Positions 6,352 through 47,832 of a stretch of DNA of 64,000 nucleotides are shown here, piece after piece. Position 1 is the first letter of the stretch. Every line of letters starts with the position of its first letter. Source of the DNA: Parietichytrium sp. I65-24A (taxonomy: Eukaryota; Sar; Bigyra; Thraustochytrida; Thraustochytriidae); NCBI GenBank assembly GCA_012862575.1, contig BLSF01000011.1, forward strand, positions 620,001 through 684,000. The letters run 5' to 3'. The notes under the pieces were generated by a model. That model searched no databases and was not told the DNA's origin. It was given only the letters and a program-made list of their open reading frames with translations. A program made the translations under genes and the position numbers.

Positions 6352-6966
6352 CATTTGATGGACGAAGATGCATCTCCGACCCTTACATGGATACAATAGG
6401 GAGGCCTAACGTGCTAGGATCTAGCATTAGTACTTGTGTAGGTCTGACCGGATCATTGACCAGCCCGAATTGGTCTGAACTGCTGTGTAGGAGTGTATAA
6501 GTCTAGCTATAGGAGTCAGGATATTCTGGGAAGAGCGAGTGCACTTGCGCTGACTTGCATCTATCCGCTCCGGATCTTATACAAGACTAAGTTAAGCCAT
6601 AATCAAAAAGGATTCCGAAGCTGTTATGCAGGGTTAGCTCTCTCATAAGTCCCATACAGCCCACCTTTTTCAGTTGGAAAGATCTGTTGCTGCGTCATCA
6701 TTCCCTAAACTGAAAAGTATACGAGTAATAATGTATGACGCAATACGCACACCAATTTTCAGCCGGCTGTGTAGTTCAAAAGAGTGTGCATCTTCACCTA
6801 TCTATGTCATGGCCGAAACAGTAAGCGCTCTGTCAGTTGCAACTGTCTACCGAACCTGAATCGCCAGCTTCTGGATAAAGCCGCGCCAGAGTAAAGGCTA
6901 GGATAGATGTCCATGAGCAACACGTGTGGTGAGTGGGAGGAAGTAACAACTTGACACGTGCGAGCG

Positions 6967-7098
6967 AGATAGAGAGAGAGAGGGAGAGGGAGAGGGAGAG
7001 GGAGAGGGAAGATAAGAGTGAGAGGGGAGATAAGAGTAAGAGGGGAGAGGGAGGAGGGAGGAGGGAGCGAAAGAGGGAGGGAGGGAGGGAATAGAGGG
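6967..7098. repeat. GA-rich microsatellite tract
   Basis: About 130 bp of nearly pure purine on the + strand, made of AG, GGGAGA and GAGGGAG blocks, in the actin-SRPRA spacer. The purine bias makes long spurious Ser/Leu/Pro frames on the other strand. Confidence 0.85.
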
Positions 7099-8537
7099 AA
7101 TGACTCACGGCGTGAGGGAAGGAATGCACAATGTGTACTAGTTCCAACCATGACGACAGCTAGTACCGGGAGAACTTGCTAGTTGTGAGACATGGGCCGT
7201 GCTCAATAGTGTTAGATAGAGGATGAGTAGAATCCCCTTCGTTTTGTGATCAGGTAAGTTGATCCGACACAGGGAGTTTCTCCCTCTGTGAGCGTACAAA
7301 TGCGCAGAATTCAGTTCAGAAGAATGCAAGGATTGCAACTTGCAAGTCGACCTCTACGAGGGACGATAAGTGGGTATTAGGAGTCCAGCAAGATCAAAAA
7401 GAGAAGATCATGGCCAATCTCGGCTACCTAGCTAGAACAATGTGTCACGAATGACACGAGGCGTAGTCGTGTGTTAAGGATTACCTTGATTATGCCGATG
7501 GACACTGGCCGCACACCTCTACACTCCCTACACACTCTGACGCACCAATGCTATGCGTCGTGCTATCACTCGCTATAAGATTGTCACTACTTGCTATTTC
7601 AAACGACGCCCTAAAGAAGCAATCGCTTATATACGTCTAACGATGAATAAGAAAGGATTCACGAATGCTCGCGAATACTCGCGAATGAACTGGAACACAG
7701 CGGCGACGCAAAGTATGAATCTCGTTGGAAGTGATCCCTCATATTAGCGTAGAGAAGCACGCACGAGGTCGCAGAATCTTGGCACGTGGAGCTAACCTGG
7801 CATCGATCGTGTCGATTTGCATTTCCATAATTTCCATCGTTACGAAGGACAGCGGCGAAAATTTCGTGACCAAAGGAACCAAAATCGTTAGGAAATACAT
7901 GTGCAGTGGAAAAACTGCTCCACAAAAGCGACCAGAATCCAGAATTCAGAACAGATTAAGGTCGATAAACGCACCTTTTCCGACCAAACTTCCTTCTGGA
8001 GCACACCCAATCCGGCACAGCGTTTTACGAGGGCACAACGAAGAAGCTCTGTTCCTTTTTGACTGTTTTAGCACGAAAGTGCCAGCTCTTAGTCTGTACT
8101 TAAAACATCCTACTATCGCCTCTACTTCAATTAACCCTTCCAAGACCATCGTCCAATTTCATCCAAACTGGCGCACACACATACATACATACACACACGT
8201 TTACATTCTCGTGCGTACAGTACATACGTTGCGCGTACCCCAATTTCGTGGTCAGCGCTTTGGGCCAGATTGTATCTCTTCGCGACTGGGCCGTGCTGCG
8301 CAGGAGCGCGTTTAGTTTCTTGTTGCGCGAGATTACACAAGGGAAGTTGTGAAAGTGTCTCTGAGACTGCGCAAGCGTACTTACCTCCGGCAGACTGTGC
8401 GTTCGAGCAGTGTGGGGCGTGCAAGACAGTCGAGGCTGTGGGCTGCTCAATTTAGGCACGAGTTGGTGTCGTGCAAGGGTTATCGTCGGACTGGTTAAAA
8501 AGCGCGACAGTTTGGTTGGTAAAAGTGCGAAGGAGAA

Positions 8538-28444: not shown

Positions 28445-29542
28445 TCTCTCTTTTCTCTTCTCTCCCAAATCTGCTCTCTGCTCTCTGCTCTCTGCTCTCT
28501 GCTCTCTGCTCTCTGCTCTCTGCTCTCTGCTCTCTGCTCTCTGCTCTCTGCTCTCTGCTCTCTGCTCTCTGCTCTCTGCTCTCTGCTCTCTGCTCTCTGC
28601 TTTATTCCCTCTGTAGATCGCGGGCTAGGCTGCGCGGATAAGGTTTGCCTATACCCAATCCTATTCCCCGGGTGTCCTCGGCGCGGATGGGAGGTGAGAA
28701 GTTTCTTCCCTCTTTCCTTTTTGTATTTTTTTTCCTGGATTTTTCTGTGATTTTTCGAGTTTTCTTAGTGTTTTCTTAGTGTTTTCTTTGCTTTTCTTGG
28801 GCGAGAATCATGATGGAGATGGGACCACCGGGCGATAGGAGCGGCTAAGGTAAATGGTAGCACTGAGGCGATGGATGGTGGCAGTGTTAGGGGATAGGGT
28901 AGATGAGAGTTAAGAGGGGGGCGACTGGACGGGAAGAGGGCGCGACCTAACCCAGCGACCTGACTGAATGTTTGGAGATGGAGAGAACAAAGAGCCGCTT
29001 CGCTGTGCTTGGCGATGTGGGACCTGGAGACTGGGGAAAACGTTCCGCGGAACAGTTCGTCACGAAGCGGCCTTTTTCGTCACGCTTAACCGCGTTATTC
29101 CTTAATATCTGCGTCATTTACCCCCCTACGTGACGCAACGGTGCTCGCCAACGGTCGCCAACGGTCGAAAGTTCGAGCGAGAGAGCATGAGAGATATGAG
29201 AGAGATGGAAATTGAGAGAGCAACTACAAGTCACTCTCAAAGAGAGAGAAACAAAGAAACACAGAAGGAAGCAAAGAGAGAGAGAGAGAGAGAAAAAGAA
29301 ACAGAGAACAGAGCTCTCCAATCGAGAAAGGAGTAAACCCACAGGTCGATAGATTGATAAATAGAGAATAATAGAGAGAGAGAGAGAGAGAGAGAGAAAG
29401 AGGGACCAAGTTGAGTACGAGGACGAGGTCGTGCGAAAGAAAGTGCGAAAGGAAGGAAGTGAGAAAGTGCGAAAGGAGCAGCAAAGACAGGTGATTTCGT
29501 CCACTTGCTGCGAACAGAGAGTGTTGTCAAGGGAGCGGGAAA
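28445..29542. other. Divergent promoter region of ABCE1 and the WD40 gene
   Basis: 1.1 kb that includes a heptamer array beside ABCE1 and GA dinucleotide runs (about 29277-29293 and 29373-29397) beside the WD40 gene. No further gene seen. Confidence 0.55.
28471..28600. repeat. Heptanucleotide tandem array (GCTCTCT)n
   Basis: About 18 nearly perfect copies of a 7-bp unit, starting some 27 bp upstream of the ABCE1 start codon, so probably in its 5' UTR or core promoter. Because 7 is not a multiple of 3, all + frames through it are open and repeat every seven codons (SALCSLL), which mimics a coding region. Confidence 0.95.
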
Positions 29543-45517: not shown

Positions 45518-47832
45518 ATGGGCAGGTACCGACACTTGAATGATGTTGGGGCAGAGTCGAGATCCTGGTGCGTGGAGTCGTTGGAAGAAGGACTAAACGC
45601 TTTCGACCGAGAGGTGGCCCTGTGGTAAGTGAAGTGGCGTCCGCTGAGTGAAAGAGCCAATGTAGTTGATTGTCTGACGGTGCATTTCCTTTTTCGCACA
45701 GGTTTTATGAGCATTGCGTGAAGCAAGACGGAGCGATAAAGGTCGCCATTGCGCTCAACGGAAACAAAACGCTTCAACAGTTAGGGTAAGTCGTGCATGT
45801 GCTGAGTGATGCTCGGGCAACAGAGCCAGTTCGCGTGACTTTGACACCGGTTTGTTCAATAAGCTCAGTACCTTGTTAAGCCTTCTTGGACTTGGTGATT
45901 CACGATTTCAAGTCTTTTGGTACTGAAATAGTCTTAGCAGAAATAAAATTGGCGCTGAAGGAGCATTAGCGATCGGTCGCGCGTTGGAGAAGAATACTGC
46001 ACTGACCTCGTTGAAGTACGTATGACTTTGACACCGGTTTGATGAGAACGGTTAGTATCTTGCCACAATTTTTCGTTCTTTGTGGCTGACGACTTCATGT
46101 CTTCTTCGTGATAAAATAGTCTCTTGGACAACGAAATTGGCGCTGAAGGAGCGATAGCGATCGGCCACGCGTTGGAGAAGAACGCTGCACTGACCTTGCT
46201 GAAGTACGTGGGACTTTGACGCCTGATTTGGTGAAAGCATTTAGTCCCTTGCTAAACTTCCTCTTATTTTGTGGCTGACGGCTTCTTGTCTTCTCGTGAT
46301 AAAATAGTCTCTCTGACAACAAAATTGGCGCTGAAGGAGCATCAGCGATTGGCCGCGCGTTGGAGAAGAGCAATGCATTGACCTCGTTGAAGTACGTAGG
46401 ACTTTGACACCGGTGTGATGAAAACGTTTAGTACGTCGCTAAATTTTCTTGGACTTGATGGCTGACGAGTTCATATCTTTTGGTAATGAAACAGTCTTAA
46501 CACCAATGGAATTGGCGCTAAAGGATCGTTAGCAATCGGCTGTGCGTTGGAGAAGAACACTGCGCTTACTTCATTGGAGTACGTGCGACTTTGACACCGG
46601 TTTGCTGACAAAGAGTTTGCACCTCGTTAAGCTTTCTTTCCTCGGACTTGTGGCTGACGATTTTCACGTCTTTTTGAAATGAAATAGTCTTCGAGAAAAC
46701 AAAATTGGCGCTGAAGGAGCGTCAGCGATCGGTCGCGCGTTGGATAAGAACATTGCACTGACCTCGCTGAAGTACGCGTGACTTTCATGTTGGTTTGGTG
46801 AATAACTCCGTACCTAGCTAAACTCTCTTGGATTTGGGTGGCTGACGATTCCATGTCTTTTTGTGATAAAATAGTCTTTGTAGTAATCAGATTGGCGATG
46901 GAGGAGTATCAGCGATTGGTCGCGCGTTGGAAAAGAACACTGCGCTGACTAAGTTGGAGTACGTGTGACTTTCTCACCGGTTTAACAAAAATTTTAGTTG
47001 TTTGCTAAACTTTCTCGGACTTGATGGCTGACGTTTCATGTCTTTTTGGAATGAAATAGTCTTTCTTGGAATGACATTGGCGCTAAAGGACCATTAGCGA
47101 TCGGTCACGCGTTGGAGAAGAACACTGTGCTGACTACATTGGAGTACGTGTGAATTTGACACCGGTTTGGTGAAAATGTTTGGCGCGTCGCTAAACTTTC
47201 TCGGACTTGTGGCTGACAACTTCATGTCTATTTGTAATGAAATAGTCTTCAGGATAATGAAATAGGCGCCGAAGGAGCATCAGCCATCGGTCGCGCGTTG
47301 GAGAAGAACATTGCGCTAACTGACTTGAAGTACGTGTGACTTTGACACCGGTTTGAGGGAAAACCTTTTCCTACGTTGCTAAACTTTCTCAGACTTGGTG
47401 GCTGACGATTTTATGTCTTTTTGAGATGAAATAGTCTTGGCAGAATTGAAATTGGTGCTGAAGGAGCATCAGCGATCGGCCGCGCGTTGGAGAAGAACAC
47501 TGCACTGACCTCGTTGAAGTACGTGTGGCTTTGACACCCGTTTGATGAAACCGTTCAATACCTTGTTAAACTTTCTCAGATTTGGGCTGACGATTTTATG
47601 TCTTTTTGGAATGAAATAGTCTTGAGCGACATAGAATTGGCGCTGAAGAATCATCAGCGATCCGTCGCGCGTTGCAAAAGAACACTGCGCTGACTTCATC
47701 AAGCAGGTACGTGTGCTTTGACATTGTTTTCCAAGAAAACTCTGCGCTTAAAAATTAGAGTCGTGTAGCGCTGACACCGTTGTGATTCGCAGTCAGAATA
47801 GCTTGCAATTGCAAACTTTTGGAATATTTTAA
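45518..47832 (+). CDS. Leucine-rich-repeat protein (NLRC3/RNase-inhibitor-type LRRs), 13 exons
   Basis: Exons: 45518-45624, 45702-45785, 45932-46015, 46120-46203, 46308-46391, 46495-46578, 46688-46771, 46875-46958, 47060-47143, 47246-47329, 47435-47518, 47620-47706 and 47793-47832. They total 1074 nt, giving 357 residues in one frame. Exons 2-11 are exactly 84 nt, and all introns from intron 1 are in phase 2, so each exon is one 28-residue LRR of the pattern LxxNxIGAEGASAIGRALEK. Exon 1 (MGRYRHLNDVGAES) is a non-LRR head and exon 2 a diverged repeat. Exon 12 has a decayed end, and exon 13 adds SQNSLQLQTFGIF before the TAA. LRRs of this class form a horseshoe for protein binding; the partner is unknown. 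The splice junctions join codons to give LNL at most boundaries, which supports the model. Confidence 0.82.
45836..47740 (+). repeat. Tandem array of exon-plus-intron units, period about 187 bp
   Basis: Exon starts are spaced 188, 188, 187, 193, 187, 185, 186, 189 and 185 bp. Both the exon (84 nt) and the following intron (101-109 bp) are alike between units. The introns share GTGACTTTGACACCGGTTTG after the donor, GGCTGACGATT (a CTGAC branch-site candidate) and TGAAATAG at the acceptor. The first copy of the intron word lies inside intron 2 at about 45836, so duplication breakpoints lie within introns. Confidence 0.9.

Follow-up and report, generated by a model that had tools for sequence, protein, structure and literature searches.

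The 64,000-nucleotide stretch of the Parietichytrium sp. I65-24A genome analysed here (contig BLSF01000011.1, positions 620,001 to 684,000; hereafter the window) contains a gene in which a leucine-rich repeat (LRR) exon recurs in tandem together with its intron, and this raises the question of what kind of gene is built in this way. It could be a local coding repeat, a member of an ordinary old family, or one part of a system that diversifies. We favour the last of these, and think that the gene is probably an LRR-only member of a modular recognition repertoire that evolves by unit duplication, recombination and diversifying selection.

Organisation of the LRR gene in the window

The gene model, rebuilt from the window DNA, spans positions 45518–47832 on the plus strand, and its 3′ end is tentative. 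Exon 1 (45518–45624, 107 nt) carries the start codon and an N-terminal segment (MGRYRHLNDVGAESRSWCVESLEEGLNAFDREVALW) in an open frame that runs to a GT donor in phase 2, and is followed by an 84-nt phase-2 exon encoding a degenerate cap LRR (45702–45785). Nine further LRR exons are each of 84 nt (45932–46015, 46120–46203, 46308–46391, 46495–46578, 46688–46771, 46875–46958, 47060–47143, 47246–47329 and 47435–47518), and a tenth of 87 nt is degenerate at its 3′ end (47620–47706). The terminal exon with the stop codon (47793–47832) is a tentative assignment for which alternative acceptors are possible, the chosen one lying outside the three that remain open longest. The region downstream of the gene is 75% identical to locus L013 across 128 bp, and a 3′ element is common to the gene and to L013, L026 and L030.

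The sequence-only reading of this region had proposed nine 84-nt LRR exons and one of 87 nt, with exon plus intron as the copied unit of about 187 bp and every intron in phase 2, and each of these points is borne out. The exon lengths agree with the mapped coordinates, and all 12 introns of the rebuilt model are in phase 2. Tandem Repeats Finder reports an array of exon plus intron units at 45828–47694 (period 187, 10.0 copies, 76% matches, score 1811), with a second, overlapping row at double the period. The introns between the repeats are mutually homologous at a spacing of ~187 bp; the nine inter-LRR introns are 101–109 nt long, begin with GT and end with AG, and successive LRR exons start 185–193 nt apart. 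The count of ten exons is right for the LRR exons themselves and missed the upstream cap-LRR exon and exon 1; the range given for the gene, 45836–47740, starts within intron 2. Retention of any one of the 12 introns would introduce at least one in-frame stop codon.

The predicted product has 357 residues and consists of LRRs of the ribonuclease-inhibitor type, with repeats of 28–29 residues. Its match to Pfam LRR_6 (PF13516) has an E-value of 3.4e-48 (158.3 bits; cut-off 23.4), LRR_1 and LRR_4 are likewise above their cut-offs, and the best chains in a PDB search are ribonuclease-inhibitor-like and other LRR proteins. The Pfam matches are to LRR families alone, with neither ROC nor COR, and the window protein is thus not itself a ROCO protein. 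By eye there is no obvious signal peptide in exon 1, given which the recognition-gene family appears to be intracellular.

A genome-wide family of LRR arrays

A search of the 42.5-Mb genome (172 contigs) with a 30-mer from the exon core found 469 matches with three or fewer mismatches, and none with the reversed control, which rules out a chance repeat. The DNA of the window gene, introns included, has at least 79 genome matches counting itself, with the other 78 at 68–89% identity (40 of 110 candidates scored). The window and 33 other loci together contain 44 arrays with between 2 and 22 unit hits apiece (398 in all), some of them cut off by contig ends or by the ends of the extracted loci. 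The head of the gene is shared too: of the 25 other loci compared, 17 match its first 300 bp in DNA, wholly or in part, and in L017 the match is limited to 70 bp.

Among 39 family clusters drawn from the matches to the gene's DNA, at least 19 are no more than 10 kb away from the end of a contig, with about 8% expected (binomial p=2.5e-11; contig size known for all but six of the clusters). A subtelomeric location of the family would explain this, as would breaks in the assembly at its repeats, and several arrays do reach a contig end; the assembly has no exact match to four repeats of the TTAGGG type. One 6-kb locus (L025) holds an LRR array, and its last stretch, at the end of contig C146, by eye resembles the 3′ end of the SSU rRNA and the start of ITS1.

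Exon length is constrained

Exon length is strongly constrained in the repeat units. In a profile alignment of 333 units with no built-in preference for 84 nt (the exon calls used for the diversity and array sets do favour 84 nt by design), 284 units are fully covered, and 267 of these show no net change from 84 nt. Exon indels of any kind are present in 17 of the 284, and 11 net changes are multiples of three, whereas 105 have an indel in the flanking intron sequence (up to 50 nt). Intron lengths are spread over all three classes modulo three (94, 79 and 75). The constancy of exon length in 267 of 284 units indicates that the frame is under selection. Unit exons in the other loci keep the frame of the window gene, with one LRR per phase-2 exon. 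The description of the locus as a 'coding satellite' undersells both the constrained exon length and the genome-wide repertoire; the original observation is confirmed and is larger than first described, and the interpretation given to it holds in part.

The module would thus be a single 28-residue ribonuclease-inhibitor-type LRR encoded by an 84-nt phase-2 exon and accompanied by its own intron of ~103 nt.

Turnover and exchange of units

There are two lines of evidence that units are gained, lost and exchanged. First, there are recently duplicated gene heads that lead into arrays of differing size. One example is L013, where the two heads are 97.8% identical across 1,596 aligned bases and lead into 5 and 22 unit hits; a second is L016, where they lead into 5 and 19. 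Unit number therefore changes between paralogues. Second, in some unit pairs the following introns are identical, yet the 5′ halves of the exons differ, a pattern that exchange within the conserved core of the exon would produce.

Relationships among units are largely mosaic. From the 398 unit hits we kept 325, of which 290 have the following intron and 258 have both introns. The nearest relative of a unit is in its own locus for 105 of the 290 (10.5 expected), and for 61 it is within two units. When only other loci are considered, the nearest units are colinear in just 3 of 233 cases (1.5 on average and at most 5 after shuffling). Mean distances within and between loci are almost the same, at 0.278 and 0.282 for introns. 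There are 50 cases of 233 in which neighbouring units find their nearest other-locus units in one and the same locus (21.5 on average and at most 38 after shuffling), so that some block relation survives and exchange departs from full randomness. The possibility that entire diversified arrays were simply duplicated was considered and rejected on the 3 of 233 colinear cases, even though the 50 with a shared nearest locus exceed the mean of 21.5. Unequal crossing-over and gene conversion could account for the gain, loss and exchange of modules, and the same processes would also keep the framework and the introns similar.

Hypervariable codons 2, 3, 5 and 26

A prominent feature that had been overlooked is a set of hypervariable contact codons. 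Diversity was measured in 275 of the 333 units, 248 of them with the following intron; here, and in the set of 325, a unit was left out if its exon had another length, if it contained a stop, if it scored low or if an intron was missing. In the 248, mean nucleotide diversity at codons 2, 3, 5 and 26 is 0.67, compared with 0.28 in introns and 0.22 at the third positions of the remaining codons. All three positions of these four codons approach saturation, unlike the framework codons and the introns, which are alike between units. Polar residues dominate at the hypervariable codons, and in the larger set the 325 units have 296 distinct combinations at codons 2, 3 and 5. The LRR consensus is LxxLxLxxNxI, and we take codons 2, 3, 5 and 26 of the unit to be its exposed concave positions.

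The same excess is seen in the recent duplicates. In L013 and L016 pooled, 11 of 120 hypervariable sites have changed versus 20 of 788 intron sites (Fisher p=0.0011), a difference of ~3.6-fold across the two duplications; taken singly, L013 is significant (p=0.002) and L016 is not (p=0.10). Nine hypervariable codons have changed, seven nonsynonymously and two synonymously, and among 230 framework codons there are 14 nonsynonymous and four synonymous changes. Among eight unit pairs in which both introns are within 4%, the exon segments that were compared are identical in five and differ at contact codons in the other three.

Identical contact blocks of 9 nt occur in 36 of 52,650 unit pairs, where 3.7 are expected from independent codons; 21 of these pairs are within one locus and 15 are between loci. 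The contact codons are weakly associated with the exception of codons 3 and 5 (z=5.3). With so few identical pairs and mostly weak association between codons, block-wise reuse of cassettes was rejected as the main source of variation.

The best reading is that diversifying selection maintains differing contact codons, holding codons 2, 3, 5 and 26 apart so that nearly every module would have its own contact residues. It is highly improbable that this is instead an ordinary old gene family with one exon per LRR, drifting under relaxed constraint and with neither special function nor turnover. One-exon LRRs are indeed common, for example in human NLRs (PMC6642158, excerpts), which would favour such a family. 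It is the intron yardstick that disfavours it, diversity at the contact codons being more than twice that of the introns, and the strong constraint on exon length and the altered unit number of recent duplications also count against it.

A diverse silent site within the contact block

Codon 4 lies inside the variable block and encodes a conserved Asn, and the diversity at its silent third position is 0.465, or 93% of the maximum. Selection acting solely on amino acids would not predict such diversity. The 21 other silent third positions have values of 5–49% of maximum (35% at Asn codon 21); codon 25, a neighbour of codon 26, comes next at 49%, followed at 47% by codon 14, which has no contact codon beside it. 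The silent sites at codons 1 and 6, which adjoin the block, are not raised, and a gene-conversion model consequently requires tract ends to be very short or closely packed. Decay of CpG was rejected as the source of the codon 4 diversity, which persists before A (59 AAT to 54 AAC); CpG observed/expected in the window is 0.96. The base at this site does, however, covary with the one that follows it (p=0.016) and with the final base of codon 3 (p=0.0002).

The 72 unit pairs with no differences among 63 framework positions still differ at 52% of their hypervariable nucleotides, and in 31% of these pairs the silent site of codon 4 is different. One example of a close pair is units 3902 and 4089 of locus L011, which have flanking intron distances of 0.01 and 0.00 and six exon differences, all (by eye) in the first 21 nt. 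A star-tree simulation calibrated on the introns, which ignores both homogenisation of the flanks and the real shape of the tree, requires an omega of ~12–40 to come near the observed values at all three positions.

These observations could be taken to indicate a targeted process at the DNA level, either mutation or very short templated replacement, acting on ~12 nt at the exon start (codons 2–5) and near codon 26, with selection merely filtering its products. The near saturation of the contact codons at all three positions, the gap between codon 4 and the 21 other silent sites, the framework-identical pairs, the L011 pair and the large omega would all fit. We nevertheless consider it very unlikely: there is a single silent site inside the block and the distant codon 14 is also fairly high, the pooled excess over introns in the two recent duplications comes to no more than ~3.6-fold, the simulation has the simplifications noted above, the residue composition is non-random with polar residues dominant, and the process comes without a candidate mechanism. 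Were it true, this eukaryote would possess a mechanism dedicated to diversifying receptors, linked to outputs through TIR and kinase domains. The data are reconciled most simply if the framework and introns are homogenised and the contact block is held diverse by selection. Because each module has its own intron, and with it a built-in neutral yardstick, the choice between selection alone and a focused DNA process is directly testable.

Tails and effector domains

Some of the arrays continue in frame into ROC-COR-TIR or protein kinase tails, to which they are predicted to be spliced. A Pfam scan of 11 tail frames from nine loci found ROC, COR-A and TIR_2 above cut-off in L015, L034, L037, L038 and L039, and Pkinase above cut-off in L012, L017 and L023. 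The L011 tail frame, which is partly masked, has no Pfam match, and its DNA resembles the tails of L012 and L023. Neither NB-ARC nor NACHT is matched by Pfam in the window protein or in these 11 tail frames (that of L011 partly masked). The tail is split into overlapping frames in L034 and L039 (in L039 the three domain matches are spread over two frames, and the second L034 frame is without ROC), and some members may therefore be broken.

In 11 loci, among them the window, the final LRR exon has a phase-2 end; in two further loci no donor was found. A phase-2 acceptor leads into an LxxNxI-like start and an open frame of 845 residues in L015, 414 in L039 and 144 in L034. The tails of L009, L018 and L020 reach a stop 29–39 residues past the last LRR exon, and those of L011, L012, L017 and L023 stay open for ~800–1,000 residues from a start that is not LRR-like. 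Arrays would thus be spliced in phase 2 onto one of three kinds of tail: a short cap with a stop, a coiled region with a protein kinase, or ROC-COR-TIR.

Genome-wide there are 11 COR-A matches (10 above cut-off) and 38 TIR_2 matches (37 above cut-off), and by their coordinates nine of the 11 COR-A matches have TIR_2 just downstream on the same strand. The other 29 TIR_2 matches are not just downstream of COR-A and some are in open frames of more than 1,000 residues, amounting to a wider TIR repertoire. A query from the region preceding the kinase gave 19 matches, several of them out of one locus. In L012, positions 1–1710 and 6722–8416 are direct repeats with 94% identity, which, judging by coordinates, seem to be part of two tandem kinase tails on contig C140.

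The LRR-only arrays, that of the window included, could be mainly a reservoir or decaying copies, with the members tailed by ROC-COR-TIR or kinase being the working receptors. The window gene has no effector tail, the tails of L009, L018 and L020 stop after 29–39 residues, and a similar reservoir has been suggested for LRR-only loci in kelp (PMC11378527, excerpts). The window gene nevertheless has an intact frame with GT/AG splice sites throughout, and its head recurs at 17 of 25 other loci; we regard this interpretation as unlikely. With the window gene as a functional member of a repertoire, as we prefer, the proteins would presumably be expressed inside the cell and bind partners through their contact residues. 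By analogy with ROCO and NLR receptors, and judging from gene architecture, the repertoire most likely recognises non-self or variants of self, which would give it an immune role.

Relationship to known systems

The closest precedents are the ROCO genes of brown algae and the HNWD receptors of fungi. Brown-algal ROCO genes with shuffled LRR exons were reportedly described by Zambounis in 2012. According to the available excerpts of PMC11378527, these genes have 72-bp phase-2 exons each encoding a 23-residue LRR, with selected concave sites and splice variants. The resemblances are considerable: one LRR per phase-2 exon, large numbers, an LRR-ROC-COR architecture, and the occurrence of LRR-only loci (PMC11378527, excerpts). 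Diversifying selection is described at four concave positions in the algae (PMC11378527, excerpts); here codons 2, 3, 5 and 26 show excess diversity over introns, in recent duplicates too, together with a raised silent site. The differences are of three types. First, the exon here is of 84 nt and encodes a 28-residue LRR of the ribonuclease-inhibitor type in place of the 72 bp and 23 residues of the algal genes (PMC11378527, excerpts), and 267 of 284 fully covered units are without net change from 84 nt. Second, some tails here have TIR after ROC-COR, or a kinase without ROC-COR, whereas the brown-algal proteins are relatively simple LRR-ROCOs apart from three-member groups with a peptidase or DUF900 (Teng 2024, PMC11378527, excerpts); the same excerpts name a TPR-ROCO-TIR in Chondrus crispus and mention TIR and kinase with ROCO in other organisms. 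Third, the excerpts of PMC11378527 contain no statement on homology of the introns between ROCO exons.

In the fungal NLR repeats evolution is concerted both within genes and between them, unit number is polymorphic and positive selection acts at few positions per repeat, and these repeats share with the units described here near-identity, a small number of variable positions and varied effectors (PMC4986451, excerpts). Repeat exchange, change in unit number and few hypervariable positions, which characterise the HNWD genes, are all found here, between paralogues. The fungal repeats are WD, ANK or TPR motifs on NLR domains, with no LRR motifs, in contrast to the LRRs here, and no exon-intron unit is described for them in the excerpts (PMC4986451).

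Human LRR exons, those of NLRs included, are mostly frame-preserving and encode one or more LRRs of 69–87 bp each; they include the ribonuclease-inhibitor class, and their architecture has been linked to alternative splicing (PMC6642158, excerpts). The likeness is one of architecture only, in frame-preserving exons of LRR length. Bacterial AP-GTPase (ROC)-COR proteins have rapidly evolving N-terminal LRRs and are proposed to be counter-invader systems (PMC8195603, excerpts); they share the combination of LRR, GTPase and COR in one protein, and exon modularity does not arise there.

An exact-string literature search found no papers using names such as LRR-ROC-COR-TIR, and searches covering combinations of ROCO and TIR, and LRR genes of labyrinthulomycetes or thraustochytrids, returned no such system among the matches listed, judged by title and abstract. 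Nothing came from a search for the phase and length of LRR exons in NLRs. In lampreys, VLRs are assembled somatically from LRR cassettes; the likeness is in LRR modules that vary at concave positions, and reuse of contact blocks here is above chance but rare.

The chlorophyll-binding family PF00504 has no match in the genome, and the host is probably a non-photosynthetic eukaryote. The idea of an exon-modular, self-diversifying receptor, known from brown algae, would be extended to a genome with no PF00504 match, to another class of LRR, and to TIR and kinase outputs.

Other sequence features

Two relatives of the LRR query are present in viral contigs. In one region (L042 2700–3700, from an IMG/VR contig) there are query-related 28-residue LRRs with no intron seen in that stretch. 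The PfaA model has no genome match above cut-off; contig C66 (8562–22499) has an open frame of 5,583 residues with repeated below-cut-off PfaA matches and is polyketide-synthase-like. Elsewhere in the window, at 28470–28601, Tandem Repeats Finder reports a perfect array of the heptamer TCTGCTC (18.9 copies, 100% matches), which sits in a minus-strand open frame that by eye resembles the start of ABCE1/RLI.
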